NCBI GenBank assembly: GCA_017548125.1
Contig: JAFYNK010000031.1
Coordinates: 1-34,664 of the forward strand
Direction: 5' to 3'
Origin: Bacteroidales bacterium
GTDB lineage: Bacteria; Bacteroidota; Bacteroidia; Bacteroidales; F082
Length of the DNA: 34,664 nucleotides
Shown: piece after piece, positions 5,751-34,664 of the stretch
How the letters are laid out: each line of letters opens with the position of its first letter
Position numbering within the stretch: the stretch's first letter is position 1
The notes under the pieces: generated by a model
Databases searched by the model: none
The model's input: only the letters and a program-made list of their open reading frames with translations
What the model was told of the DNA's origin: nothing
Program-made: the position numbers and the translations under genes

Positions 5751-7658
5751 TTACTGCTCGTTTAAGATTTTCAATTTAGCTTCCAAGACTTTAACTTCGT
5801 TCTTGGTTCTGTTGATTTTCTTTTCATATTCAGCTCTCATCAATTCTGACTGTTTGCTGCCTGAGAAGAATCCGATATTGTTTTCCAAAACGATTATTTC
5901 TTCACGTAATTTTGTGATTTTGTTTGTCAAGATATTACGTTCTCTTCTTACTTTTTCGCGTGATTCTGGATCGTCTTTCAATCCTTCTACCATGTTGCGA
6001 TATTCTGCTGTAGAGATTTCGTTTTGAGTTGCCTTCATCTTTTCAAACAAAGCATCTATTGAGTTACGGTATTCTTCTTGTGTTGCGTCTTTATATTTCA
6101 TTGGCACAAAACCGATAGCCATCCATTCTCTTTGGAATGCCTTGATAGCTTCCATGTTTTCAGAACGGTTTGCAGTGATTTCGTATGCCTTGATGCGTTC
6201 AAGGAGTTCTTTCTTAAGTCTGAGGTTTTCATCTTCAACACCTTTAATACCGCTGAAGTGTTCTGACTTGCTTGTGAAGAATGAGTCGCAAGCTGAACGG
6301 AAGCGTTTCCATATCTTGTCAGAATGACGTTTTGGAACTGGACCGATTTTCTTCCATTCTTCTTGGAGTTTCTTGATTTGGTCAGTAGCTTTTTTCCATT
6401 CTTTGCTTTCAGCGAGAGCTTCAGCCTCAACGCAAAGCTGGATTTTTCTGTTGTAATTGTCTATTTGTTGTTCTTTAAGTTTGCTGAAGAATTCTTTCTT
6501 GTTGCTAAAGAATGAGTCCATAGAGCTTTTGAAACGATTCCAGATGTCGTCGTTTTGTTTCTTTTGAGCTGGACCGATTGACTTCCAAACTTTAAAGAGT
6601 TCGTTTACTTCGTTAGATTTCTTTTGCCATGCGCCGATGCTGTTGATGCTGTCGTTCAATAATTCTTCAATCTTTTCGCATATTGCGACTTTAGCATCCA
6701 AGTTGGCTTGTTGTTCGTCTTGAATCTTAGAATAATGTTCGCGACGGATTTGGTTGATTTTATCTGTGGTGTTCTTGAAACGTTCCCAGATTTCATCTTT
6801 CTTTTCTTGTGGAACTGGTCCTATTTCTTTCCACTCGTCATGATATTTTTGTAATAATTTGAAAGCTTTTGTCACTGACTTTTCGAGAAGAAGTTCTTCT
6901 GTCTTTTCGCATAATTCAATCTTTGCTTCCAAGTTTTTCTTGAGGTCTAAATCACGTAATTCACGATTGATTTTAACTTTGTCGTAGAATTTTTCAATGA
7001 GGAAATGGTAGTTATTCCAAAGGTTTGTTATTTCGCTTGCTGGAACTTGGCCAATTTCTTTCCATCTGTCTTGAAGTACGCGGAATTCGTCGTATGTCTT
7101 TTTTAAGGTTTCTTCAGAGTTGATGAGTTGTTTGAGTTCTTCGAGGATAGCGTTCTTTAACTGAAGATTAGCCACCTTTTGTTCTTCGAGAGATTCGTTG
7201 AATTTGTTTTTGTTGTCTCTGAAAATATTGAAAGCTGCTCTGAAACGGATTTCGAGTGGGTCTTCAATATGTTCGTAGTTATCCTTGTCGCCGCCATCCA
7301 AAATGAATTGTTCCATTTCTTGGTCTCTTTCTTCTTTGCATATTCTCAAGAAGTTAGATTTGATAGAAACAACTTTGTCTTTTATTTTTACAACGTCCGT
7401 ATCTTGTACTGTCTCTTCAAGTATTTCTATCAGTTGCAATTTGTTACAACTTGAGAAATCGTATTCAGTCTCAGTTTCTTCATCATCATCTTCACCTATT
7501 TCGAGATTCAAATCGTTGTCGATATCTTCGTCTATTTCAACGAGTTGTGTCTCTTCTACAGGATTCACATCTGTCGCATTTACTTCTGTTTGGACAGTTT
7601 CAGGCAAAATGTTAAGCTCTTCAGGCTTTACCATTTCATTACGTTCGTTAGTATTCAT
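5751..7658 (-). CDS. DUF349 repeat protein
   Basis: A 635-residue, highly charged, mostly helical cytoplasmic protein. The first 80 residues are acidic (a run of Asp/Glu around DEDIDND and GEDDDEE). The rest carries at least five copies of the DUF349 unit, each marked by the motif W-x-x-I-G-x-V/A-P/Q: WKEIGQVP, WKEIGPVP, WKSIGPAQ, WKKIGPVP and WMAIGFVP, spaced about 70 residues apart. A coiled coil ends the protein. DUF349 proteins of this size are conserved in Bacteroidota; the molecular role is not settled and I do not assign one. The frame can be read from a TTG at 7664, but ATG at 7658 (MNTNERNEM) is the better start. It has its own promoter and terminator, so it is probably monocistronic. 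Confidence 0.9.
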   Translation of the reverse strand: MNTNERNEMVKPEELNILPETVQTEVNATDVNPVEETQLVEIDEDIDNDLNLEIGEDDDEETETEYDFSSCNKLQLIEILEETVQDTDVVKIKDKVVSIKSNFLRICKEERDQEMEQFILDGGDKDNYEHIEDPLEIRFRAAFNIFRDNKNKFNESLEEQKVANLQLKNAILEELKQLINSEETLKKTYDEFRVLQDRWKEIGQVPASEITNLWNNYHFLIEKFYDKVKINRELRDLDLKKNLEAKIELCEKTEELLLEKSVTKAFKLLQKYHDEWKEIGPVPQEKKDEIWERFKNTTDKINQIRREHYSKIQDEQQANLDAKVAICEKIEELLNDSINSIGAWQKKSNEVNELFKVWKSIGPAQKKQNDDIWNRFKSSMDSFFSNKKEFFSKLKEQQIDNYNRKIQLCVEAEALAESKEWKKATDQIKKLQEEWKKIGPVPKRHSDKIWKRFRSACDSFFTSKSEHFSGIKGVEDENLRLKKELLERIKAYEITANRSENMEAIKAFQREWMAIGFVPMKYKDATQEEYRNSIDALFEKMKATQNEISTAEYRNMVEGLKDDPESREKVRRERNILTNKITKLREEIIVLENNIGFFSGSKQSELMRAEYEKKINRTKNEVKVLEAKLKILNEQ

Positions 7659-18640: not shown

Positions 18641-19786
18641 ATGAAAGAAACTATCAGACTTAGAAAAAAAGCTACAGCTGGTAACACTGGTGTTATGTCA
18701 TTATATCTTGACATATACAGGAACGGTAAACGGGAATACGAGTTCTTAAAACTTTACCTCGTGCCAGAATTAACAAAAGCAGACAAGAAAAAGAATGATG
18801 AAACCATGAAGCTGGCGGAAGCTATCAAGGCGAAACGCACCGTAGAACTCATGAACGGCGAATACGGATTCAAGCAGCATTACAAGACGGATACGCCTTT
18901 CTTCGAGTACTACTCTGCAATGTGCGAGAAGCGTTTCAACAACCCTGAAAGCAGAGGCAACTGGGGAAACTGGTATTCCTGCCTTCATCATCTCCGCATC
19001 TACGAACAACGAGACAACATCACTTTTGCAGAGATTGACCAGAAGTGGGTGCAGGGATTCAAGGACTATTTAGAGACAAAAGCCCTTGCATGGAGCAATG
19101 ACAAGAAAAAAAGAACCAAGGAACAGCATCTGTCCCGAAACTCCAAAGTGTCATACTTCGCCAAACTGCGTGCATGTCTCAACCAGGCTTTTGAAGAGCG
19201 TATCATTCCCGTCAACCCATGCCGAGGCGTGACGAATTTCAAGACGGAGGAAGGAACGAGAATGTATCTGACAGTTGAAGAGCTGAAACGACTTGCAGAA
19301 ACTGACTGCATACAATACCCAGGCGTAAAGACAACGTTCCTGTTTTCTTGCCTTACAGGTTTACGAAGAAGCGATATTCTGAAACTGACATGGGGCGAAG
19401 TCCATCAGCAAGGCAATTTTACAAGACTTATATTTAAACAGAAGAAGACTGGCGGACTTGAATACCTCGACATAAACCAGCAGGCTGTAGAACTGATGGG
19501 ACCAAGAGGAAATTCAGACGACTTCATATTCTCTGACATGCTGCCCGACATGGACTGCACAAACAAGACTCTGCAATCATGGATGTACCGTGCCGGCATT
19601 GACAAGAAGATCACATTCCATTGCGGACGACATACTTTCGCCGTAATGATGCTTGACCTCGGCGCTGACATATACACCGTGAGCAAGCTGCTCGGACACC
19701 GGCAGCTAACCACCACACAGATCTACGCCAAGGTACTTGACAAGAACAAGCAGAATGCCGTGTCTCGTATTCCAAGTATTTTTTGA
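18641..19786 (+). CDS. Tyrosine recombinase (site-specific integrase)
   Basis: A 381-residue phage/transposon integrase of the Bacteroidota type. It has an N-terminal arm-binding region (1-90, starting with IRLRKKATAGNTG and a small beta sheet), a core-binding SAM-like domain (about 95-205), and a catalytic domain. The catalytic residues are Arg242 (TGLRRSD), His327 and Arg330 (HCGRH), His353 (LLGHRQL) and Tyr362 (QIYAKV). All are intact, so the enzyme should be active. It is the first gene of the element, next to the presumed attachment site, and is read away from mnmE. Regulation probably works through the TTGTTACT repeats directly upstream. A strong terminator follows the stop. Confidence 0.96.
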   Translation: MKETIRLRKKATAGNTGVMSLYLDIYRNGKREYEFLKLYLVPELTKADKKKNDETMKLAEAIKAKRTVELMNGEYGFKQHYKTDTPFFEYYSAMCEKRFNNPESRGNWGNWYSCLHHLRIYEQRDNITFAEIDQKWVQGFKDYLETKALAWSNDKKKRTKEQHLSRNSKVSYFAKLRACLNQAFEERIIPVNPCRGVTNFKTEEGTRMYLTVEELKRLAETDCIQYPGVKTTFLFSCLTGLRRSDILKLTWGEVHQQGNFTRLIFKQKKTGGLEYLDINQQAVELMGPRGNSDDFIFSDMLPDMDCTNKTLQSWMYRAGIDKKITFHCGRHTFAVMMLDLGADIYTVSKLLGHRQLTTTQIYAKVLDKNKQNAVSRIPSIF

Positions 19787-20819: not shown

Positions 20820-21389
20820 ATGATAACATTATGGATTGGTGCTGCTATTGGTGGAGGCTTGAGCGTTCTTGGCAGTGTCGCAGGCGGTATTGCTGCAAAG
20901 AATGCGGCGGATGACGCAGCCAACAAACTCGCAGAACAAAAACAAAAAAATCAGGAATGGTACAACAGGCGATACAACGAGGATGCCACACAACGTGGTG
21001 ACGCACAGCGTATGATTACCAGAACGGAAGAGCTTATAAGACAACGCAATAAGGCAGCGCAAGGCGCACAGGCTGTTATGGGCGGAACTTCAGAAAGCGT
21101 TGCAGCAGCCAAGGCGGCAAACAACAAGGCTATATCTGATGCTGCCGCCAACATTACAGCCAGTGCAGAGGCTCGTAAAGACGCTATCGAAGCTACATAT
21201 ATGCAGAACGACAGTGCTTTCAACCAACAGCAGATGGCTATTGACAATGCCAAGGCTCAGGCTATTGCAGGAGCTGTACAAGGTATTGCTAATACAGGCG
21301 CAGCCATAGCTGGAAGCGATTTTGAACTTCCTCAAGGCTTCAGAAAGAAAGATAAGAATACTACACAAACAGAAGCTTTAGGAGGATGA
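20820..21389 (+). CDS. Ala/Gln-rich phage protein with N-terminal membrane segment
   Basis: A 189-residue protein. Residues 4-27 form a small-residue hydrophobic segment (GAAIGGGLSVLGSVAGGIAA) able to cross a membrane. Long helices rich in Ala, Gln and Asn follow (NKLAEQKQKNQEWYNRR, then RMITRTEELIRQRNKAA, VAAAKAANNKAISDAAANI). A second small-residue helix is near 155-170, and a basic tail ends in QTEALGG. This design, a membrane-active start plus long Ala/Gln helices, resembles DNA pilot and internal virion proteins of Bacteroidota phages, so ejection or virion assembly is likely. No family can be named with certainty. The stop codon is 4 bases before the next start, so the two are co-transcribed. 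Confidence 0.7.
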   Translation: MITLWIGAAIGGGLSVLGSVAGGIAAKNAADDAANKLAEQKQKNQEWYNRRYNEDATQRGDAQRMITRTEELIRQRNKAAQGAQAVMGGTSESVAAAKAANNKAISDAAANITASAEARKDAIEATYMQNDSAFNQQQMAIDNAKAQAIAGAVQGIANTGAAIAGSDFELPQGFRKKDKNTTQTEALGG

Positions 21390-22543: not shown

Positions 22544-25500
22544 ATGCCAATTTACACAGTAAACAACAAAACTTTCAATATACCAGATGATAAAGTGGAT
22601 GCCTTTGAAAAAAAATATCCCCATGCTTATATTGAATATCATACAGAAGATAAAAAGTATAATATTCCTCTATCTGCACGAGAGGGATTCCTAAAAAAGT
22701 ATCCTAATGCTACTTATTCAAAACAAGATGGTCCCTCCTCTCCTTCCGTTTCTGTTGAGCCTGCACAAGTTGCCAACCCTGTTTCTCAGGTAAAGCAGGA
22801 TTCGCTGAGCGTTGATGCAGACGAAGATACTGATGTCAAAGTCCAATCCTCACAAAGGACAATGAAACCTGAGACAACAGATGACCTGATTGCAAGAATA
22901 CAGAGAAACGGCAAGAAAGACAAGCAGGAAGAACTTCTTGAAGCACTTTCTCAAAGACAAGAACAAAAGACAGCACAGGACAGATATGTCAAAGGAATAG
23001 AAGATTCCATAGAAAAGAAAGCGAATGAACTGATAGAAAAAGACGTCAGTCTCAGCACTTTCAACAAAACCAAAGACAACGGATTGCAGTTCAACCCGTC
23101 AACGGGAAAATTAGAACGCTCCTACTCCACTCCATACGGCAATACGACTACCGACAGACATCTTGCTGATATGGAGAGTTCTCAATATGCAAGCAATATG
23201 ACTGTCAGCGGACAGCTCAGACAGGCACAACGTAAATTGGATGAACTTAAACGCATGAAGCAGGAAAGAGCCAACGAAGTTCACGATGAAACTGCTGATT
23301 TTATAGATAGTAAACTTACAGGTTTTGGCCAGGCTCTTATTGGAGGTAATTTTTATGTGTCAAAACAAATGAGCGATCCTGAAAAAAACACTCTGGACGC
23401 AGCCATTCTTGAAACCGAAGAACAAATCAAAATATTAGAAAGAGAGATTGACAGACAAAATAACAAACGTGTCGGATTTTGGAGAGGTTTTACGGATATT
23501 ACCGGTGATATCAATACCTGGGATTTTGGTTTAGGCGATGCAAAACACGCACTTACCTTGCTTGATGTAGGTAAAGATTATCCACATAAAAGCGATGGAA
23601 CAAAACAAGCCGAGCAAGAATTGCTTGAATCTGTGTATAAAAAGCAACAAGCACAGCAAAGCTACGGACGAAATGATAACTTCTGGTTCCGTGCAGGCAC
23701 AATGACAGGTCACATGCCTGCTTTCATGATAGACTTCGCTGTTACCGGCGGAGGATTTGATGGCATAAACGCATTGTCAAAGGCTGCGACAAAAGGCGCA
23801 ACAAAGGCAATCGGAAAAGAAGTCATCGAGGAAATGGCTAAACAGGGTTTTAAAAACTATGTAAAGGCTAACGGTGTTAAAGGATTCAGCCAATATGCAG
23901 GCAACTGGACCATCAAAGCACTCGGCACAATGGCTGACGACCTTATCATAAGAGCACCATTGATGACAAATACAGTTCAAGCGGCAAAGACCGCTTCTGA
24001 CATAATAGACAGAAAACTCGGAAGTGTTGTCGTCAATGAAGACGGAACATACGACTTCTCCAACGACAAGACATGGAGTAACGCCATCTGGCAAGGAGAA
24101 GCAAACGCCATCATTGAAAACTATTCAGAAATGTTCGGTGCGCACCTTGCTCCTGTCACATTAAAGAACATGTCTGATGTCGCTGCCGTATTCGGTGCAA
24201 AACGGCTAAGCGGTGTGCTTGCAAAGGCAGATGCAAGCGCAATAGGCGCAATCATGGGAAAAACAAACGAGATGTTTACCAAGCTCGGCGTCTCTGACTA
24301 CTTCGGCGAAGTCACTGAAGAATACTACGGACAGCTATGGCGTACAATGCTCAACCTTGATGACGCATACAGACAAAACCCGGACGGTTCAAGAACAAAC
24401 CTTCTGGCAACAGGACAATTCCATGGTGACATATTGGGTGGCATGGCTCTCAGCATGGGATTGATGGGTGCTGGCAAATACTCTCTTTCAGCAGCCAATT
24501 ACACTATGATGAAGCATGATGTCAACAAAGCTGATTCAAGAGCAAGAGAATTGTTTGGCAATGATATTTGGGAACCATTACGTCAGACAATAGATTTGAC
24601 AACAAATGATGATATTGGAAACTATATAGGAAGTGTTCTTATAGACGACAAATTAACCTTAGAGGAAAAAGAAGCTGTTTTAAACTATGTAGAAAGGTCC
24701 TTGTATCTAAGAGGCTTTAACCTCGCCACATTGGCTCAGTCACGCAATACTGATGAATCGGACAGCGACATCATCGATCAACAGAACAACGAATCATTCC
24801 TTGACGGATATAATGCAAGCACACCTCAAGAAATGAACGATGCCAAAAACATGCTTGAAATCAAAAAAGCAGAAATGATCCATACATTCGGTTTTACTGA
24901 TGAATCTGACATCGAAGCATTCCTCGGTGAAAATCCTATCGAGACTGTCGCACAAAGAAGACAGAATGGAGAAAGTCAGGAAAGCACACAGACTGTCATC
25001 GACTATCTCAACGCCAAAGCGACATACGTCGGCATGATACAGCGTGTCTGTGACGACATTGACGGACAGATAGAGCAAAGCAATGCGCTCATCGATTCTC
25101 ATACAAATAAGCATACAGGCAAGATTCACGGAGCTGTATCTAAAGAAGACGGCAGACTTGTTTATATCGTCTCAGGCAATGTCGTTCCTTATCAAGATGG
25201 TTCAGGCATCGACTTGCAGAATTCGGACGAAAACATCATCGTCAGAGATGCTGAGACTGGAGAATTGAAACAGATGTCACCTGAGTTCCTTTCTTCCTTA
25301 TACGACACACAGTACCCTAACGAGCAGAAGGAAATCAACGCCCAGCAGATAAGAGAAAAGATTCTTTCAGAAGAAAGCAACAAGATTGACGGCGTCGTTG
25401 ACTTCAACGACAAGGAACAGCTCCTTAACGAAATTGCAAACCAGATTGCCATTACAATGATACTCGCACAAAGAGGTCTTGACGCTGATTACATCAAGAC

Positions 25501-28500
25501 ATTCATTGGCAATGCTCAGATTGTCGAAAATCCTGACGGAACACTGACTTTCACTGACGGACAGAACGAGGTCGTTGTACCTAAACAGGAAATACAGCAG
25601 CAGGTTGACGCTAACAACATGCAACGTGCCGTTGACTTCAACGACAAGGCTAAAGAAATGCGCAATGCCATCCAACAGGCAGCAGCAACAACAACTCTTT
25701 CTTATGGAATGGGAGACAATATTTCATTAAGAGACGCTGACGGCAATATCATCAACGGAACTATATCTATGATAGAAGACGACACTTATGTCATAGATTA
25801 CAGTGACAATAACGGCACATGGCATACTCTTGACCTGACTCAACAAGAGCTTGACAATATGATTGTCGGCCATAACGGTTCAACATTGAACCAACCTGTT
25901 TCAGAACAGAAACAAGCTGATTGGAATTCGGATGAACAATATCAGTATGATGATGAAATGTCTTTCTATAACGGCCAGATTCATGGCACTCTAAATAGAG
26001 TAGAAAACGGAACTGCCATTTATGTTGACGACAAAGGCGAACCTGTAATACTGTTAGCTGCAAAAAACGACCATCAATTCATTGGAATATTCAGAGAGCC
26101 TAATTCCAATAAATGGTCAATAAAAATGGAAAACAAACAAGGTGACAAAGGTGCGTTTAAAGGATTGCTTTCATCTGCAATGTCAAAATTGCCTATCGGT
26201 GCTGAAATTTATGAAAGAACATCAATATCTCTTGATGGTTTAAGAATATTTTCACAACAACTTGAACACGGATTCGAAATAGGAAATGACACTTACGAGA
26301 CAGATGTGAATGGTGCCGACATGGCAAATGTCTTTGGTCTTAGCGAAGCTGACCAAGAATCAATGGCAAGTGTTCATATCTCTGAAAATGAACTTCCTAA
26401 AGTCAAGGAAATACTAAGACCATATTTAGAGAAATTCGGTGTAAAGAACATTGATAATGTAGTTTATTTGACCAATGGCAATACTCTTAGTATCAAACTC
26501 CCTATATTGGTAAAAACTGGCATAGGAACAAGCGTCCCTAAAAATAATATCGACAATACATCTTCAACAGAAGAAACGCATTCAACAAACGACAATGGTG
26601 TCCAAGAATGGTACAAGAACATTCATCTTAGCGGTGAATTAGACCAAAACAATGTTCCTTTTGTTCTGTCACCAGACGGCAATGTTGATTTCGGATATAT
26701 AGAATCCATGCACAATCTGCCAGAAGCACCTATAAGATTGTCTATGGGGGATATTTCTAATGGCTATATCCACATTAACAAAAGACATGGCAACGAAATA
26801 AAAAAAGCAGGATTCAATTCTATTGAAGAATTTATCAAATATGTTGCGGATAACTTTACAAGAATACAGGAAGGTTCAGCTTATGACAATTCCAACAATG
26901 ATAAAAACCAATCGTACCTGATACAATTACAAGACGGTCATAACAACACGCTCTTTGTTCAGTTATCTCGTGATGGCAAATACTGGAATGTTAATAGTGC
27001 CGGAGTTTTTGGCAAGTCATATGGTAACAAGAAGAAAAATATTTGGTCTGCCTCCGAAGTGCAGAGTGACAACTCGGCGGTTGTCAGTGACGGTTCGCAG
27101 TCCGAGCCTATCGCCGAAAACGGCTCTACCTCTAACGGAACTCCGTCCAAATCTTCTGAGCACAAAGATAATAATTCTTTTGATAATAACAACGAGTTAG
27201 AGGAAAAAGTTTACCAAGCAAGCGAAAACTTAAGAAAATATGTAGAATTCTTTAATTATAGGTATGGATATGAATTTACATCAGAAAGAGATTTCTACAA
27301 CTGGATAGTACGAAAATACAAAACAAAAAAAGACATTTATCTTTGGCTATCTGATAATCTTCCAAAAGAAAATGTTAGCTATGCGATGCGTGCTATTATA
27401 GATTACGGTATCGCAAGCAAACAATTAATTGAACAATCCTCCACTAACAAAGGAGATTTAACGCTACAATCTACCACTGACGAGACCGTTCCAACATCTC
27501 AATCTTCCCTTATTCCTAAAGACGAATCAGGCAATCCTATCTACGAGCAGGCTGACAGCGAAACGGCTTGGGACGCTCTTATGGAAGATGCTGAAGGCGA
27601 CGAAATAATGGCTGGCGAAGTTGCCAAATCAATGATCGCTGACAAAGAAGCGGAACTCAAGAAACTTGAAAAGACCAAAATCAAGGAAGGCAAGACTCCT
27701 GCCGAGAAAATGGCAGCTCTTAAAGAACGTAAAGCTGAAGTTGAAAAAATCAAGCAAGATATCGAAGCATGGAAGAAAATTGCGGCAGTTCCTATACAAA
27801 GACAGATTGCACAGCAGGAACGCATACGTCAGGAAGAAGCAGAAGCAGCCGCAAAACGTAAAGCTGATGAAGAAAGTTTGTTGGCGGAACGTCTTGAAGC
27901 ATTGCGCAATAAACAAGAATTGCACAACGGCATTCCTGACTATTCAGAAGACACTCCGCAGAACGCCCGTGCAAGAGGCTACAGACGTGTGAATGGTCAT
28001 ATAGAAGAACGCCAGCAAGCAATAGAAGCGGTACAAGGCAAGGAAACAGAAGTCGAGTTCAGCAACGATGTAAGACCTAAAGGTCATTATGCCGTGATAG
28101 ACGCTTCTCAACTCCAGCCAAGCCACATTCAAGGCAACCGCAATCCTTTGCACTTCCTTGACGAAGCACAGCCGAAGGAACGCAACGACAAGGCAAGCAT
28201 CGTTTCCGCACAGAAGATTGCAGGCAACATCAGACCGGCAACAATCACTACAGGAGAGACTGCATACGTCGGCACTCCTACTGTCAATACCCGTGGAGAG
28301 GTTATCCAAGGCAACAGCAGAAGCGACGCATTGAAACTCATGTACGGCAATCATAATGACCAAGCACAGACTTACAAGCAATACCTTATGGACAACGCAG
28401 AGCAGTTCGGATTGAATCCAGAAGATGTTTCCAATATGGAGAGTCCTGTTCTCGTCCGTATGCTTGATGTCAATGATGAGCAGGCAATCACACTCGGACA

Positions 28501-31500
28501 ATATGTGGCGCAAGACACCGAAAGCGGTGGTATAGAACGCATCAAGCCAAAGAACGCAGTCAAGAAGATGGGTGAAGACATAGGTTCTTTTGCAAATATT
28601 TTGTTAAAGAGCAACGACGAAGACGTATCTTTTGCTGAGCTTTTGGACCAGAATGGTGTCGAGGTGCTTAAATGGATGGCTCAGAAAAGCTACATCACAC
28701 CTACTCAATATAACAGCGCATTCGACACAAAAGGAAGTCTTACAGCAGAAGCAAAGAACGACCTTCGTGGCATTATGTACCAAAGCATATTTGAAGGCGG
28801 AAACACACGTCTCGAAGAGATGTTCAACGCTTTGCCTGCAAAGGCACAGAAAGCCATACTTGCTACAGCTCACAGAGACTTCAACAGTCCGAATAGCGAA
28901 CGCATGATTGAGGAAATACAGGACTCTATCCGTGCTTTCTATGCGCTTATGCAAGACGAACAGTTTGCTAAGGCAAAGAATTTAAAAGATGCAACAAAGG
29001 CTGTAGAAGCATGGCAAAAGCAATATCAGATGGACGATGTTACTGGAGAAGGTTATCTTCCTTCTGAAAAATTTAGTAACTTTGCATTGCACTTGGCGAA
29101 GCTGTATAAGGGTGAAAAACAATCAAACATCCAAGGTGTATTCGCTGAATTATACGACCTTATCCAAGGCACCAAAGAAGATAATCTGTTTGAGCAAGCA
29201 TACAAGACACCTCGCACGCTCGTACAGGCAATTAAGGAAGTTTTAAATATAGATTATAATGGACAACGGAGAAATAATGTATTGGGTGGCGATAATAAAA
29301 CAAGCCAACAAGGGCAACACGGACGCACAGGAGATGTTGCAAGCAGAGAACGAACTGAGAGCGGAGAACAATCTTCCAACGATTCAGGAAGAACTGATGA
29401 AGATAGTGGAAGCTCAGCCTTTGAAACTAATAGACAGACTGAAAATGAGAGCGGAGATATTAGGACCGCACAAACCGTACATCAATCCGGATCTGAACGA
29501 GAAGGATTTGAACAAACTCTTGATGGAAGACGGCAAACAGACAGCTCAGGAATGGCTGATGACAATGCCACAGTCTTGGAGAAAAGAACTTCCAGAAGCG
29601 ATATACGAGTGCTTGAAGAAGGGTTGGACGCTAAACGAGGGGACAATACTGAGCATAGCGAGAGAACTCGACGCACAGCGGAATCCGAAAGGCTGGTAAA
29701 TACTGCCAAACAGCACGGACTATTCATCCCTGCCGAAGTTATCATGACTTTGACAGGCAAGTATCCAAAACGCACAGGCGAGAGTGTTGTTTACATCGAC
29801 GCAGAAGCAGGTAAGGTAACAAAGGTTAAAGATCCATACGCCAAGTCTGCAATGAAAAGCGGTGTTCAGCCTGAAGATGCAATATTTGAACACCGTGTAC
29901 ATAATCTCCTTTTCCCCGAAACTGCCTACACATTGGAGGGTATCAGTGAGGAACTTGGCGATGTTCGCATTGTTCTCACTCAGGACTATATTCAAACCAA
30001 AGGACACCCTACCAAGGAACAGATTACTGAAGCACTTGCCAAACGAGGATTATTCCCGGAAGATAAATATTCTTTCGGAAATGAATTTGTGTCTGTAACG
30101 GATGTTGAAGGTGATAATGTTCTCTTAGGTGAAGATGGTACAGTTTACTTCATTGACCCTATCATACGTTTCAAGAAGCCGTTGAAAGAGATTCTTGACA
30201 ACTACAACAGAAACAATAACAGCACACTTGGCGAACAAATCAAATCAGCCGAAAAAGAAGTCAACACCTCTCCTACCGACAAACAGAAAGAAGCAGGCAA
30301 TTACAAGAAAGGTCATGTTCAGATAGGAACATTCAACATTACCATAGAACAGCCTAAAGGTTCTGTGCGTAGCGGCGTTGACGCTAACGGCAGGAAATGG
30401 GAAACCACAATGCACAACACCTACGGTTACATCCGTGGCACTGAAGGCGTGGACGGCGACCATATAGACGTGTTCTTATCCGACGACATTGACGGTTGGA
30501 ACGGTAACAATGTGTTTGTCGTTGACCAGTACAACGAAGACGGCACTTTTGACGAGCACAAGGTAATGCTTGGTTTCAACACCATTGAAGAAGCCGAATC
30601 AGCTTATCTTGACAACTACGAAAAAGGCTGGGAAAAGAAACATAAGATAGTGGTCTCTCCTATCCATACCGAGAATTTTGAGAAATGGATAGAGTCCTCA
30701 CATCGCAAGACGAAACCGTTTGCAGAGTACAAGAGTGTGAAATCGGAAGAAAATCGTACAAAAAACAACGAAAATCGTACAAAATCCACGGAAAACAGCA
30801 GTAAAGTTGAGGAAAGTTCAGCAAGCAACGATACATCTTACACTATTGAACCTGCACAATACACAACCAAGAAAGGCAAGGTTCTTGACATGCACCTTGT
30901 GAAATTTGACAAGCCTTTGTCTAAAGAACAACAGCAAGCCGCAAAAGAACTTGCAAGAGCAGAGAAAGGCTGGTATGACGCAAAACAAGGCGGTTTTATG
31001 ATGCGCAGCAACGAAAGTGCGAAAACATTAGCTAACACCATTCTTAATGATGAAAACGCTGTCGCTGACGCTCAGCCAGTATCAATGAACGACATCCAAT
31101 CTGTAAATGACGGAAACGTATTGTTTTCAGAACCACAACAGACTGAACAACCGAAAGCGCCTAAAAGCAAGAAGGTTCACACTCCTATATGGCAATATAT
31201 TATTCATGTTGACGATGACGGATATACCATGCTGTCCCGTGAAGATATAAGCGGAGAAATACCTATTCTTGACGACTGGGGATATTCTTCCGAAAGCCCA
31301 GAAGAAATGCTTGAGATACTCCGCAATCCTCAAAACAATATGCAGGAGGTTCTGAATGCCGTTGAAGTAACTCTTGAAAACAAAATCAAGACTCGTGATT
31401 TTGACCGCAAAATTAGAGAAGAACGTGAACAGAAGCGAATAGAACTACGAACAAACGGTGTCAATGGTTATAAAATTGGCGACAGGGTAATTTATACCCC

Positions 31501-34500
31501 GGTAAGTGGTACAAGAAAGCCTGTTGAAGCTACAATACACGATTTTGAAGAATACGGAGACAACAAGCCTGTGCTTGATACAGGATTGGCACCTGTCATG
31601 TATGAAGTTGTTGAGTGGGAAAATATCAAAAAAACTGAAAATTCTTCTGTTGAACGTCCGCAAAAGGGTGATGTCTATAAAAACAATATTGCAGGAGGTG
31701 ACGCTGTTGCTTTAATTCAAAGTGTAGGCAAAAAAGGATATGTCTTAGCCTTTGCGTCTAATTTGGAAGATGCACAAGGCGGTTTGTTCATGGGCGATAA
31801 AATTGTAGATTTTAAGGAAATGGACAGATGGCTTACTGATGGCAGTTTAACCAAGATAGAACAGCAACAATCGACAAACCCAAGCGGGAACCGTCTCGTT
31901 ACAGATGAGCGTTACGAAGAACTCAAGCAACGTATGCGCAGAAAGTTAGGCGGTCAGATGAATATTGGCATTGACCCTGAAATACTGGCTATCGGTACAG
32001 AAATGGCAGTATATCATTTGGAAAAAGGTGCCAGAAAATTCGCTGAATATGCCAAATCAATGATTGCAGATTTAGGCGATGTTATCCGTCCATATCTCAA
32101 AGCTTTTTACAATGGAGCGAGAGATTTACCGGAAATAGAAAGCAGCGATATCGCAAAGGATATGACTTCATACGACGAAGTACAGACTTTTGATGTAGCA
32201 AACTTTGACAAAAGCTCTGTCAATGCTATTGCTACAGCAGAGACAGTTATACGCGAAGAAGAAGTTGAAAAAGAGGTTAAGATTGCAAAAGATAGAATCA
32301 AAAAAAATCGTAACAATCACAATAATAAGAAAAAATCTGTAAATTCGCAAGGACAAACAGGAAGTCTGTTTGATGACTTATTCAATAACGAAAACTCTAA
32401 CGACAATGGATTACAAAGAAATGATGAAGTTCGCTCCGAAGGATTGTCAGCCGACAACAATATCAACACCGGAACAGGAAGCAAAACTGGAAACAGCCAA
32501 GAAGTACAACAAGAAAGTGGAAGAACTGACGGAAACAGAGATGGCGGAAGCCAAAGAACTGGAAGAGAGATACAGAATGGCAACGTACGATCCTCTGGAC
32601 GCATACAGGGGCTGACAGAAAAGAAAAACACTCGCAACAACCGTTCTGAACGTGGACAGAACCATGCTCCTACATCCGTTGATGCCCGTATTGAAGCAAA
32701 CATCAAAGCAATCGAACTGGCTAAGCGACTGCTTGAAAACGGAGAGCAAGCCACAAAAGAACAGATGGAAGTGCTCCGCAAGTTCAGCGGTTGGGGCGGT
32801 TTGGGCAAAGCTTTCAATGAACGTGCAAGCTATGTTCACGAAGGAAGACATTACTACAACGAGCCTACCGTAGAAAACAAGAAAATCCGTGAGTTATTAG
32901 GGGAAGAAGCTTACCAACAGGCTGAAAATAGTAAATATAGTTCCTTCTACACTCCTGCTTATATTGTAGATACACTTTGGGACATCGCAGAACAGATGGG
33001 ATTTAAAGGTGGTAATATTCTTGAAGGTTCAGCAGGTATAGGTAATATCTTAGGACAAATGCCTGCACATATCAGCGAAAACAGCGACATTCATGCCATA
33101 GAGATTGACAACACCTCCGGAGGAATACTTTCTCTCCTCTACCCTGACGCTAAAGTAGAGGTACAAGGATTTGAGGAAACTCACATCACCAACGGTAGCG
33201 TTGATTTAGCTATCACCAATGTTCCGTTTATTACAGATTGGCATGTAAAAGATACTTCAGGCGACAAAGACCTTTCAAGAAAATTCCATAATATTCACGA
33301 CTTCTGTATTGCTAAAAATGTACGCAAACTACGAGAAGGAGGCATTGGCATCTTCATTACATCTAACGGAACACTCGATAGCAGCAAGAAACTTCGTGAC
33401 TGGATTGTAAGCGAAGGTAATTCCGACTTTGTCGGTGCTTTCCGTATGCATAACAAGACTTTTGGCGGCACAAGCGTAACATCTGACATTATTGTAATCA
33501 GAAAACGGGTCAATGGACAAAAGTCCGTCAATGCTATTGACGTAAGCACCGTAAGCGGTGAACGTACGACAAACTTTGATACCGGCGAAACCCGCAAGGT
33601 TAAAGGTGTGGAAACATCTGTCACCAAGCAGCTTTCAATGGACTACAACAGATACTTCATCGAACATCCTGAAAGAATGGCTGGAGAAATGCACTTTGCC
33701 TTTGAAAAAGGCGACACATATCGTCCTACAAGCAAAGGTCTCTATCCTTCACAAGACAAGAACCAGGAACAGATGTTGACAGAATTTGTCAAGTCATTCA
33801 AGGAAGAAGAAGTCGGAAACAAAGCAAGCAATGATGTAGAAGTTACTGACGCAATACCTGGCAAAAAAATCGGTGAAATGTTCGTAAAGGACGGAAAACT
33901 CTACATCAATGCCATCGGATCCGCTCAACCTCTTGATGTCAATGCCAATAAGGTCAAAGGACACACGAAAGCAGAATGCTTTAAAGCATATTCATCTATC
34001 AAAGACGCTCTAAAAGAGGTCCTTGACTATCAATCCAACCATGAGAGTGACAACGGATTAAAACCATTGCTTGAAAAGCTCAACAAGGCTTATAACGACT
34101 TCGTTTCCACTTACGGGCATTTTAACAAGAATACATCTATCGCATTCCTGCGCAATGACGTTGACTATGCCAACGTAGCTTCCGTAGAGACATACAAGGA
34201 GACTGGCGACGGCAAAGGCGGCATAAAACAGACATTCGGCAAAGCTGACGTGTTAACGAAACGTGTTATTGAAAAAGAGAAAGAACCTACACCTACAAAT
34301 GTAAAGGACGGCATTGTTGCAAGCATGTTCAAGCATGGACGTATCGACATTCAATACATCGCAGAACAACTTGGCAAAAGTGAAGCGGATGTCAAAAAAG
34401 AGATTATCAGCAAAGGATATGGTTTTGAAGACCCGATAACACGACAGATTGAAGTTTCATATCAATATTTAAGCGGCAATGTCAGAGAAAAGCTTCTTCA

Positions 34501-34664
34501 AGCACAAGAAAACAACGAAAACGGAGAGTTTAACAGCAATATCAAAGCGTTGCAGGAAATATTGCCTATGAACATACCTGCCCACTTGATTGATTTCACA
34601 CTCGGCAGTTCATGGATTGACTCTCAGCTATATGATGATTATGTAAAGGACCGTACAGACGTGG
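22544..34664 (+). CDS. Giant polyvalent protein (BECR RNase-like, ParB-like, kinase-like, PPase-like, N6-adenine MTase domains); continues past the window
   Basis: One frame from ATG 22544 stays open to the window end, 4040 codons. I checked the frame at ten points along it. Visible parts in order follow. Residues 3-56: two copies of a motif (NNKTFNIPDDKVDAFEKKYP and KKYNIPLSAREGFLKKYP). About 380-660: helices with hydrophobic patches. About 1403-1503: a BECR/barnase-like domain with HINKRHGNEI. 1683-1787: a charged coiled coil. 1844-1982: a ParB/DdrB-like domain with VIQGNSRSDAL. 2385-2546: a domain like the kinase of polyvalent proteins. 2585-2716: inorganic pyrophosphatase-like, DGDHIDVF at 2637-2644. 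3136-3198: a conserved helical domain with GQMNIGIDPE and KAFYNGARDLPE. From about 3376: a DarB-like N6-adenine methyltransferase with GWGGL, motif I GSAGIGN (3495-3501) and motif IV NVPF (Asn3559); the spacing suggests an SNF2 helicase follows outside the window. Such proteins are known from phages and conjugative elements as multi-tool factors delivered with the DNA, for example P1 DarB against restriction. Ser/Asn/Glu-rich linkers separate the domains; two of them carry nested ORFs. The preceding genes point to co-packaging in a virion, which is inference. Confidence 0.88.
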   Translation, partial: MPIYTVNNKTFNIPDDKVDAFEKKYPHAYIEYHTEDKKYNIPLSAREGFLKKYPNATYSKQDGPSSPSVSVEPAQVANPVSQVKQDSLSVDADEDTDVKVQSSQRTMKPETTDDLIARIQRNGKKDKQEELLEALSQRQEQKTAQDRYVKGIEDSIEKKANELIEKDVSLSTFNKTKDNGLQFNPSTGKLERSYSTPYGNTTTDRHLADMESSQYASNMTVSGQLRQAQRKLDELKRMKQERANEVHDETADFIDSKLTGFGQALIGGNFYVSKQMSDPEKNTLDAAILETEEQIKILEREIDRQNNKRVGFWRGFTDITGDINTWDFGLGDAKHALTLLDVGKDYPHKSDGTKQAEQELLESVYKKQQAQQSYGRNDNFWFRAGTMTGHMPAFMIDFAVTGGGFDGINALSKAATKGATKAIGKEVIEEMAKQGFKNYVKANGVKGFSQYAGNWTIKALGTMADDLIIRAPLMTNTVQAAKTASDIIDRKLGSVVVNEDGTYDFSNDKTWSNAIWQGEANAIIENYSEMFGAHLAPVTLKNMSDVAAVFGAKRLSGVLAKADASAIGAIMGKTNEMFTKLGVSDYFGEVTEEYYGQLWRTMLNLDDAYRQNPDGSRTNLLATGQFHGDILGGMALSMGLMGAGKYSLSAANYTMMKHDVNKADSRARELFGNDIWEPLRQTIDLTTNDDIGNYIGSVLIDDKLTLEEKEAVLNYVERSLYLRGFNLATLAQSRNTDESDSDIIDQQNNESFLDGYNASTPQEMNDAKNMLEIKKAEMIHTFGFTDESDIEAFLGENPIETVAQRRQNGESQESTQTVIDYLNAKATYVGMIQRVCDDIDGQIEQSNALIDSHTNKHTGKIHGAVSKEDGRLVYIVSGNVVPYQDGSGIDLQNSDENIIVRDAETGELKQMSPEFLSSLYDTQYPNEQKEINAQQIREKILSEESNKIDGVVDFNDKEQLLNEIANQIAITMILAQRGLDADYIKTFIGNAQIVENPDGTLTFTDGQNEVVVPKQEIQQQVDANNMQRAVDFNDKAKEMRNAIQQAAATTTLSYGMGDNISLRDADGNIINGTISMIEDDTYVIDYSDNNGTWHTLDLTQQELDNMIVGHNGSTLNQPVSEQKQADWNSDEQYQYDDEMSFYNGQIHGTLNRVENGTAIYVDDKGEPVILLAAKNDHQFIGIFREPNSNKWSIKMENKQGDKGAFKGLLSSAMSKLPIGAEIYERTSISLDGLRIFSQQLEHGFEIGNDTYETDVNGADMANVFGLSEADQESMASVHISENELPKVKEILRPYLEKFGVKNIDNVVYLTNGNTLSIKLPILVKTGIGTSVPKNNIDNTSSTEETHSTNDNGVQEWYKNIHLSGELDQNNVPFVLSPDGNVDFGYIESMHNLPEAPIRLSMGDISNGYIHINKRHGNEIKKAGFNSIEEFIKYVADNFTRIQEGSAYDNSNNDKNQSYLIQLQDGHNNTLFVQLSRDGKYWNVNSAGVFGKSYGNKKKNIWSASEVQSDNSAVVSDGSQSEPIAENGSTSNGTPSKSSEHKDNNSFDNNNELEEKVYQASENLRKYVEFFNYRYGYEFTSERDFYNWIVRKYKTKKDIYLWLSDNLPKENVSYAMRAIIDYGIASKQLIEQSSTNKGDLTLQSTTDETVPTSQSSLIPKDESGNPIYEQADSETAWDALMEDAEGDEIMAGEVAKSMIADKEAELKKLEKTKIKEGKTPAEKMAALKERKAEVEKIKQDIEAWKKIAAVPIQRQIAQQERIRQEEAEAAAKRKADEESLLAERLEALRNKQELHNGIPDYSEDTPQNARARGYRRVNGHIEERQQAIEAVQGKETEVEFSNDVRPKGHYAVIDASQLQPSHIQGNRNPLHFLDEAQPKERNDKASIVSAQKIAGNIRPATITTGETAYVGTPTVNTRGEVIQGNSRSDALKLMYGNHNDQAQTYKQYLMDNAEQFGLNPEDVSNMESPVLVRMLDVNDEQAITLGQYVAQDTESGGIERIKPKNAVKKMGEDIGSFANILLKSNDEDVSFAELLDQNGVEVLKWMAQKSYITPTQYNSAFDTKGSLTAEAKNDLRGIMYQSIFEGGNTRLEEMFNALPAKAQKAILATAHRDFNSPNSERMIEEIQDSIRAFYALMQDEQFAKAKNLKDATKAVEAWQKQYQMDDVTGEGYLPSEKFSNFALHLAKLYKGEKQSNIQGVFAELYDLIQGTKEDNLFEQAYKTPRTLVQAIKEVLNIDYNGQRRNNVLGGDNKTSQQGQHGRTGDVASRERTESGEQSSNDSGRTDEDSGSSAFETNRQTENESGDIRTAQTVHQSGSEREGFEQTLDGRRQTDSSGMADDNATVLEKRTSRSDIRVLEEGLDAKRGDNTEHSERTRRTAESERLVNTAKQHGLFIPAEVIMTLTGKYPKRTGESVVYIDAEAGKVTKVKDPYAKSAMKSGVQPEDAIFEHRVHNLLFPETAYTLEGISEELGDVRIVLTQDYIQTKGHPTKEQITEALAKRGLFPEDKYSFGNEFVSVTDVEGDNVLLGEDGTVYFIDPIIRFKKPLKEILDNYNRNNNSTLGEQIKSAEKEVNTSPTDKQKEAGNYKKGHVQIGTFNITIEQPKGSVRSGVDANGRKWETTMHNTYGYIRGTEGVDGDHIDVFLSDDIDGWNGNNVFVVDQYNEDGTFDEHKVMLGFNTIEEAESAYLDNYEKGWEKKHKIVVSPIHTENFEKWIESSHRKTKPFAEYKSVKSEENRTKNNENRTKSTENSSKVEESSASNDTSYTIEPAQYTTKKGKVLDMHLVKFDKPLSKEQQQAAKELARAEKGWYDAKQGGFMMRSNESAKTLANTILNDENAVADAQPVSMNDIQSVNDGNVLFSEPQQTEQPKAPKSKKVHTPIWQYIIHVDDDGYTMLSREDISGEIPILDDWGYSSESPEEMLEILRNPQNNMQEVLNAVEVTLENKIKTRDFDRKIREEREQKRIELRTNGVNGYKIGDRVIYTPVSGTRKPVEATIHDFEEYGDNKPVLDTGLAPVMYEVVEWENIKKTENSSVERPQKGDVYKNNIAGGDAVALIQSVGKKGYVLAFASNLEDAQGGLFMGDKIVDFKEMDRWLTDGSLTKIEQQQSTNPSGNRLVTDERYEELKQRMRRKLGGQMNIGIDPEILAIGTEMAVYHLEKGARKFAEYAKSMIADLGDVIRPYLKAFYNGARDLPEIESSDIAKDMTSYDEVQTFDVANFDKSSVNAIATAETVIREEEVEKEVKIAKDRIKKNRNNHNNKKKSVNSQGQTGSLFDDLFNNENSNDNGLQRNDEVRSEGLSADNNINTGTGSKTGNSQEVQQESGRTDGNRDGGSQRTGREIQNGNVRSSGRIQGLTEKKNTRNNRSERGQNHAPTSVDARIEANIKAIELAKRLLENGEQATKEQMEVLRKFSGWGGLGKAFNERASYVHEGRHYYNEPTVENKKIRELLGEEAYQQAENSKYSSFYTPAYIVDTLWDIAEQMGFKGGNILEGSAGIGNILGQMPAHISENSDIHAIEIDNTSGGILSLLYPDAKVEVQGFEETHITNGSVDLAITNVPFITDWHVKDTSGDKDLSRKFHNIHDFCIAKNVRKLREGGIGIFITSNGTLDSSKKLRDWIVSEGNSDFVGAFRMHNKTFGGTSVTSDIIVIRKRVNGQKSVNAIDVSTVSGERTTNFDTGETRKVKGVETSVTKQLSMDYNRYFIEHPERMAGEMHFAFEKGDTYRPTSKGLYPSQDKNQEQMLTEFVKSFKEEEVGNKASNDVEVTDAIPGKKIGEMFVKDGKLYINAIGSAQPLDVNANKVKGHTKAECFKAYSSIKDALKEVLDYQSNHESDNGLKPLLEKLNKAYNDFVSTYGHFNKNTSIAFLRNDVDYANVASVETYKETGDGKGGIKQTFGKADVLTKRVIEKEKEPTPTNVKDGIVASMFKHGRIDIQYIAEQLGKSEADVKKEIISKGYGFEDPITRQIEVSYQYLSGNVREKLLQAQENNENGEFNSNIKALQEILPMNIPAHLIDFTLGSSWIDSQLYDDYVKDRTDV
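29259..29699 (+). CDS. Overprinted ORF nested in the +1 frame of the giant gene
   Basis: A 146-residue frame with its own ATG, entirely inside the giant gene. Its product looks like a normal soluble, mostly helical protein: MYWVAIIKQANKGNTDAQEM, LPTIQEELMKIVEAQPLKL, GPHKPYINPDLNEKDL, WLMTMPQSWRKELPEAIYEC, then LKKGWTLNEGTILSIA and a C-terminal PKGW. The giant frame over the same bases is a low-complexity Gly/Ser/Thr/Arg/Glu linker. Codon choice favours the nested frame as the constrained one: GAx, AAx and ATG codons are frequent, and hydrophobic and aromatic residues are well spread. No family was recognised. It may be translated from its own ATG or reached by a +1 frameshift from the giant frame. 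Confidence 0.6.
   Translation: MDNGEIMYWVAIIKQANKGNTDAQEMLQAENELRAENNLPTIQEELMKIVEAQPLKLIDRLKMRAEILGPHKPYINPDLNEKDLNKLLMEDGKQTAQEWLMTMPQSWRKELPEAIYECLKKGWTLNEGTILSIARELDAQRNPKGW
32406..32615 (+). CDS. Second overprinted ORF in the +1 frame of the giant gene
   Basis: Sixty-nine residues from ATG 32406 (an ATG at 32370 would add 12). The sequence is protein-like and mostly helical: MDYKEMMKFAPKDCQPT, then STPEQEAKLETAKKYNKKVE, TEMAEAKELEERYRMATYDP and LDAYRG. The giant frame over this stretch is a Gly/Ser/Asn/Arg/Gln-rich linker between the GQMNIGIDPE-type domain and the methyltransferase. It is in the same phase as the first nested ORF. Family unknown. Confidence 0.55.
   Translation: MDYKEMMKFAPKDCQPTTISTPEQEAKLETAKKYNKKVEELTETEMAEAKELEERYRMATYDPLDAYRG

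Follow-up and report, generated by a model that had tools for sequence, protein, structure and literature searches.

A conserved small gene in the +1 frame ahead of Kinase-PolyVal domains in Bacteroidales phage giants and stand-alone kinase genes: a candidate embedded kinase partner

The DNA analyzed here (hereafter the window) is a stretch of 34,664 nucleotides from a Bacteroidales bacterium of the GTDB lineage F082 (assembly GCA_017548125.1, contig JAFYNK010000031.1, positions 1 to 34,664 of the forward strand), in whose right part lies a giant open reading frame (ORF) for a polyvalent protein. A second ORF is nested within it and is read in the +1 frame relative to the giant ORF. The two parts of the nested ORF, referred to as nested gene 1 and nested gene 2, and the neighboring domains encoded in the frame of the giant ORF (the main frame) are as follows.

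22544..34663, + strand: giant polyvalent ORF, 4040 amino acids seen, continuing beyond the window
28076..28465, + strand: ddrB-ParB domain (PF18763), main frame, upstream of the nested ORF
29259..29699, + strand: nested +1 ORF, 146 amino acids, ATG start and TAA stop
29259..29420, + strand: nested gene 1, codons 1-54 of the nested ORF
29499..29696, + strand: nested gene 2, codons 81-146, putative kinase-linked small protein, D type
29678..30175, + strand: Kinase-PolyVal domain (PF18762), main frame, profile match of 98.8 bits (cut-off 27)
30281..30694, + strand: InPase domain (PF18823), main frame, downstream of the kinase

A first-pass annotation, made from the letters of the window alone, had described the nested ORF as a protein-like gene hidden in a linker of the giant protein. 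The two open frames over 29259-29699 are confirmed, and the main frame over the nested ORF is indeed of low complexity, with order-promoting residues at 0.11 vs. 0.33 in the nested product and 0.28 in the giant protein overall. The contrast between a folded nested product and a linker is also borne out by structure prediction: AlphaFold2 models the nested product with seven helices, a mean predicted local distance difference test (pLDDT) score of 83.7, a predicted template modeling (pTM) score of 0.50 and pLDDT values of 90-95 over residues 81-140, while in the predicted main-frame product of the same DNA residues 1-108 score below 50 and the kinase core mostly 80-95. The stop codon of the nested ORF starts 16 nucleotides within the conserved kinase core, whose start lies at 29681 in our own profile. 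K48, E70, Q101, D145, N146 and D159 are invariant among six D-type kinase cores, and we read them as putative ATP-site and phosphotransfer residues, including the conserved glutamine described in PMC5512222. The closest named relative of the window's kinase is 88% identical and comes from a sheep-rectum Bacteroidaceae metagenome-assembled genome (L080; L numbers are our locus labels).

The composition argument of the first-pass annotation is circular before homologues are compared. With the main-frame protein fixed, 14% of synonymous resamplings and 24% of codon permutations leave the +1 frame without a stop (P 0.14-0.24), and the longest +1 or +2 run anywhere in the giant ORF has a median of 137 codons under resampling vs. 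148 observed. A chance ORF arising from the linker composition is compatible with these values when the window is taken alone; it is contradicted, however, by 98 of 99 kinase loci, by frame-specific constraint and by an independent scan of the giant ORFs, all described below, and we give it next to no credence. The decisive evidence for the nested ORF is the comparison of homologues, from which it is judged to be a real coding sequence.

The homologues comprised giant ORFs from IMG/VR and stand-alone kinase genes of Bacteroidota genomes, collected with the nested product and the kinase as queries; among the genomes sampled, PF18762 turned up in 49 of 99 for the genus, 20 of 393 for the order and 12 of 395 for the phylum. 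Rows were dropped before counting when the kinase match started after position 14, when the domain E-value exceeded 1e-5, when there were fewer than 400 nucleotides from the core start or when cores were identical over that stretch. Many of the remaining loci are closely related, and the counts that follow should not be taken as independent trials. A +1 ORF of at least 50 codons with its stop within 60 nucleotides of the core start is found at 88 of 89 non-identical kinase loci, a +2 ORF at 4 of 89, and a +1 ORF in three control windows inside the kinase core at 6, 6 and 13 of 89, respectively. In the enlarged set, a +1 ORF of at least 40 codons ending within the same distance is found in 98 of 99 distinct cores and a +2 ORF in 12 of 99. 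All 98 nested ORFs have an ATG that leaves at least 40 codons, and they end between -17 and +46 nucleotides relative to the core start. The set of 99 includes stand-alone kinase frames of ~200-340 codons, giant ORFs and the divergent large ORFs L048, L053, L063, L149, L150 and L154-L156. One giant ORF (L147) has two Kinase-PolyVal cores of different types, at 2010 and 6183, and a nested ORF at each, and the second kinase of the window's own genome, a stand-alone gene of type B (G000:C24:12337-12828, L051), has its own nested ORF. Frame breaks in the nested frame with a persisting linker, named in the first-pass annotation as evidence against the gene, are not what was found: the nested frame is kept in the homologues examined. 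MT838015 (L130), which carries a nested gene and a kinase N-terminus with no recognizable core after them, was marked unverified and excluded. Separately, two tandem stand-alone kinase genes of different types in L081 (4555-5247 and 5806-6528, a genome region also represented by L002) were seen to contain a nested ORF each.

Substitution patterns in both frames place the constraint chiefly in the nested frame and not in the linker, and none is detectable in the main frame of window-like loci; this second check, too, favors the first-pass annotation, which had named constraint in the main frame only as evidence against the gene. In a phase scan of the window against L007, 12 of 206 alignable scan windows were flagged, all inside 29252-29782. 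In the C-terminal domain of the nested product, 24 of 46 changes are synonymous in the nested frame (expected fraction 0.23, P=1.6e-5) and 9 of 46 in the main frame (expected 0.26, P=0.87), where the P values, here and below, come from naive binomial tests that assume a transition weight of 2 and are run on related pairs. An excess of nested-frame synonymous changes (P<0.05) is found for this domain in 11 of 13 pairs, with 0 of 13 for the main frame, and for the N-terminal domain (nested gene 1) in 3 of 6 pairs, with 0 of 6 for the main frame; the alignment of L140 contains an indel, and the ungapped comparison of its N-domain was disregarded. Among close pairs of the D family (n=10), main-frame codon positions 1, 2 and 3 of the cores differ by.099,.064 and.317, while nested positions 1, 2 and 3 of the overlap (main positions 2, 3 and 1) differ by.082,.081 and.182. 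The quiet position of the overlap is thus the main third and the variable one the nested third, a phase pattern reversed relative to the core. The corresponding nested positions differ by.205,.136 and.394 in the window-like subset (giants plus L002 and L084; two pairs) and by.157,.098 and.490 in family C (one pair), where the main frame looks nearly free, while families A and B show low divergence at all three overlap positions and both of their frames seem to be constrained. An all-pairs scan of 15 giant ORFs (12113 informative scan windows) recovered the nested region with 40 flagged scan windows and 11 partner giants for the window. Other flags of that kind were dismissed as noise: those of one or two scan windows in L125/L126 near 7400-7600, L128 1129-1275 and L134 3120-3263, mostly interrupted by +1 stops, and two in L124 caused by alignment-order errors. 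All +2 flags overlap +1 flags, and their +2 frames have stops.

The only core of the 99 without an upstream nested ORF is L059 (the same as L148). Its in-frame C-terminal tail matches a nested-protein profile built from types A, C, E and F plus L133 and L147 (E=1.7e-4, 20.5 bits; 9779 six-frame ORFs searched). All other matches to an E-value of 0.05 are at loci with a complete or partial PF18762 kinase and most belong to the training set; those outside it are L031, L049, L056, L057, L060, L068, L069, L072-L075 and L127. In our reading, the L059 protein is probably a natural fusion of the kinase and its nested partner. Comparison of the nested types by hhalign gives 77.8% for A with C/F, 72.1% for E with C/F, 38.3% for B with E and 17-18% for A with B and A with E. 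Controls of nested vs. main frames give <1%, except for A with its own main frame (10.5%), and main vs. main comparisons give 8-11% for two unrelated-looking pairs. A single family for all nested proteins was dropped, as type D links to none and the lower values are not far from those of the controls.

Of 74 stand-alone loci, 71 also maintain an open main frame over the nested gene, against <1 expected when the nested codons are resampled. By type, it is open in 28 of 30 loci for D (0.14 expected), 24 of 24 for A (0.04), 10 of 10 for B (0.41), 5 of 5 for E (0.03), 4 of 4 for C (0.05) and 0 of 1 for F (0 expected). L106 has an upstream main-frame ATG followed by a main-frame stop and an intact nested frame, and in L084 and L047 (type F) the pre-core main-frame ATGs lie only within the nested gene. 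The open main frame bears on the possibility that ribosomes slip by -1 from the nested into the kinase frame, the nested product being an alternative kinase N-terminus. The ends of the nested ORFs so near the core start and the frame relation would suit such a shift, but slippage does not need an open main frame across the overlap, the matching segment of L059 is C-terminal, and no common slippery run was seen at the nested ends by eye, with no systematic motif search made; we regard slippage as improbable. Slightly more improbable still is a leader that couples or regulates kinase translation and whose product has no function. It would fit the overlapping starts of 28 of 30 stand-alone D genes, in which an open main-frame ATG lies 7-13 nucleotides upstream of the conserved nested ATG (in L096 and L109 another ATG precedes the conserved one), yet it leaves aside the amino-acid constraint in the nested frame, the predicted fold and the fused tail of L059, and the nested ORF persists ~2200 codons inside a giant ORF.

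The first-pass annotation took the nested ORF for one gene of 146 amino acids made only with the giant mRNA. Both points need revision: the kinase-linked nested gene also occurs in stand-alone kinase genes, and the ORF in fact consists of two nested genes, apparently two small +1 genes joined end to end. Nested genes 1 and 2 share the +1 frame and are read as a single ORF in the window, L006, L007 and L080. Nested gene 1 (residues 1-54) occurs alone, without an adjacent kinase, in the phages BS-TP4 and BKO1-TP3 and in L010 (same contig as L139), L131-L134 and L140; in L133, a kinase with its own nested ORF lies 3.4 kb beyond it. In the window's family of giant phage proteins, nested gene 1 is positioned after the ParB region. 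The main frame right after it was observed to vary between giants (L131, L132, L134, L139, L140 after 6001; L133 after 276), as if effector domains were exchanged at this site. At L003 1477-1731 (- strand), a relative of nested gene 1 lies apparently outside any giant ORF and is possibly a free or remnant copy. The observation in the first-pass annotation is correct, and the finding is larger than stated.

That annotation had further suggested a partner or an inhibitor of a toxic domain. Because the nested gene is found at the same place in stand-alone kinases and the nested profile matches a tail fused to one kinase, this can be narrowed to a partner of the adjacent Kinase-PolyVal domain. We propose, with a probability of roughly 0.6, that nested gene 2 encodes an embedded partner of the kinase, most probably one with an antitoxin or immunity role. 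The stand-alone form would be a compact two-protein module in which the 5' part of the kinase gene encodes a helical +1 protein of ~50-70 residues ending at the core; kinase and nested gene sit between unrelated chromosomal genes, and visual inspection of 12 loci revealed no further conserved neighbor. On entry of the kinase into a giant polyvalent ORF, the embedded gene would have been carried along and maintained by selection, and the main frame across it would have become a linker that mainly needs to stay open. The small protein would bind the kinase and keep it inactive in the producing cell, so that the kinase is active only in a cell without the small protein, e.g., once it has been delivered along with phage DNA. 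Invasion is the stage at which polyvalent proteins have been proposed to act (PMC5512222), and a resident inhibitor outside the delivered chain would protect the producing cell. Conservation, frame-specific constraint, kinase linkage and the predicted fold are the observed part of this explanation.

The main rival is a role for the embedded protein as an activator, scaffold or substrate of the kinase instead of an inhibitor. The linkage evidence (98 of 99 cores and the L059 tail) applies equally to it, and a helper subunit is plausible since PMC5512222 describes PF18762 kinases as having no C-terminal subdomain. However, where a stop interrupts the kinase frame, the nested frame is open in 6 of 6 loci inspected, with the ATG retained in 5, which fits an antidote better, although these may be recent losses or assembly errors. 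We consider the rival unlikely, if far from negligible. An antitoxin or immunity role fits best, given the tie to one enzyme family, the small helical product, the chromosomal two-protein modules and the nested frame that is open despite an interrupted kinase.

Several points weigh against this explanation. The openness of the nested ORF in the window alone is within chance, and nested gene 1 has no tie to the kinase and the weaker signal (3 of 6 pairs at P<0.05). In divergent window-like pairs (n=6) the nested third position differs less than the core third (.427 vs..600), for which weak main-frame constraint or saturation is a possible cause. The nested proteins of type D, which is the window's type, are without detectable relation to the other types (hhalign <1%), and the tail of L059 matches non-D types, whereas the window's product is of type D. 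The nested unit of L127 lies downstream of the kinase and may belong to the next domain. The loci with an interrupted kinase are mostly from metagenome-assembled genomes, and only six were inspected. Finally, we infer translation, binding, inhibition, the direction of transfer and the delivery scenario, the inhibitor role being drawn from the architecture alone.

Further nested +1 genes were found in the linkers of the giants. The second one in the window, w3, lies in another low-complexity linker, within a DarB-like region:

32406..32615, + strand: w3, nested +1 gene, 69 amino acids from MDYKEMM
32327..34660, + strand: DarB-like antirestriction region (phrog_10089), main frame

Relatives of w3 are found in L132 and L134, in the latter beyond the stop of its giant ORF, and the nested-frame synonymous excess (P<0.05) holds in 3 of 3 pairs, with 0 of 3 for the main frame. 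A third conserved nested +1 gene, n3 (104-115 amino acids), was not found in the window. It is also present in the isolated phage BS-TP4, shows nested-frame synonymous excess (P<0.05) in 6 of 10 pairs (best 3.9e-9), with 0 of 10 for the main frame, and lies at the following positions:

L007 12246-12557: n3
L010 11955-12278: n3
L128 7541-7885: n3
L083 10169-10513: n3
L140 10450-10773: n3

Two further candidate +1 segments received fewer phase-scan flags: L082 5545-5745 with L083 from 5506, and a coiled-coil-like one at L124 10024-10203, L126 10690-10884, L140 8292-8504 and L010 10160-10303. We offer more tentatively, and would lean against it if pressed, the wider view that Bacteroidales phage giants are two-layered, with delivered effectors in frame 0 and small proteins in the +1 frame of the linkers, the kinase-linked ones being antidotes inside the kinase gene. 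If this were true, an effector could not be moved without its antidote, and the delivered protein would reach the next cell without it. The nested genes also suggest that what looks like a low-complexity linker in a giant phage protein can be coding sequence when read in another frame.

The left part of the window holds host-like genes, including those for a NAD-dependent DNA ligase, a family 2 glycosyl hydrolase and a Cys/Met-metabolism enzyme. The two features below, together with the giant ORF, suggest the start of an integrated prophage within the right part of the window.

18641..19786, + strand: tyrosine integrase, start of the putative prophage part
20820..21389, + strand: T7 gp14-like internal virion protein, 27.8 bits (cut-off 27)

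The nested products have no accepted match in Pfam, PHROGs, NCBIfam, PADLOC or PDB; the best sub-threshold matches are T4 endonuclease V over 27 residues (E=0.018) and, for w3, phrog_6209 (E=0.029). Foldseek gave no convincing match to a solved structure for the nested model (best at E=3.8), while the first 50 matches of the kinase model are mostly protein kinases, none at E<=0.001. In plasmid and phage searches, P0001 had no plasmid relative and three partial relatives in phages, and the D-type kinase of L100 had no plasmid relative and one partial relative in phages. An E-type kinase had no relative in plasmids or phages, and a search of phages with its N-terminal part found none; scans of viral sequences gave no relatives of E-type kinases or w3, and w3 had none in phages either.

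Each of the two isolated phages checked has its giant annotated as a single coding sequence over the nested genes, and it seems that a family of proteins linked to an entire family of kinases has been overlooked because it is out of frame. The window's main-frame domain is a member of the Kinase-PolyVal family of polyvalent proteins, for which stand-alone versions in Bacteroidetes are mentioned in PMC5512222; the main text of that paper has no 'overlap', 'frameshift' or 'alternative frame' and does not describe the embedded gene. No earlier description of a gene embedded in these kinases was found in the literature on Kinase-PolyVal, polyvalent overlapping frames, nested antitoxins and overprinting, subscription journals and preprints being largely outside reach. 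With the nested gene, kinases proposed to act in phage-host conflict gain a concrete candidate partner.

The arrangement itself has precedent in the Rz/Rz1 spanins of phage lambda, in which a small gene lies wholly inside a larger one in the +1 frame and encodes a functional partner of the outer product (PMC6139136). Here, too, the inner gene lies wholly inside the outer ORF in the +1 frame (98 of 99 cores; main frame open in 71 of 74 stand-alone loci), and the inner frame is under amino-acid constraint; for a complex of the two products, the fused tail of L059 would be indirect support. Rz1 occupies the later part of Rz, and the spanins are described as lysis subunits, membrane and lipoprotein, whereas the outer gene here encodes a kinase, its 5' part is the one overlapped by the inner gene and, unlike Rz/Rz1, the pair also occurs inside giant multidomain ORFs. 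A two-gene module of a kinase and a small partner also resembles type II toxin-antitoxin systems of the HipST kind; in HipST (of the HipBST toxin-antitoxin), as described, the kinase is neutralized by an adjacent, separate small protein (PMC10627512, PMC9325769), whereas the small gene here is in another frame of the kinase gene. A relation to HipS or HipT gave no match in Pfam, NCBIfam or PADLOC, and neither the Foldseek matches of the nested model nor the first 50 of the kinase model name a Hip protein. Overprinted bacterial genes, e.g., those of Escherichia coli O157:H7, are likewise protein genes wholly inside other genes; cases of that type are described as including young or antisense ones, whereas the gene here runs in sense orientation in the +1 frame, with conservation across genera of a phylum and a tie to one enzyme family. 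It also offers a clean natural case of dual coding, in which stand-alone genes keep both frames open and window-like loci show amino-acid constraint detectably in the nested frame only.
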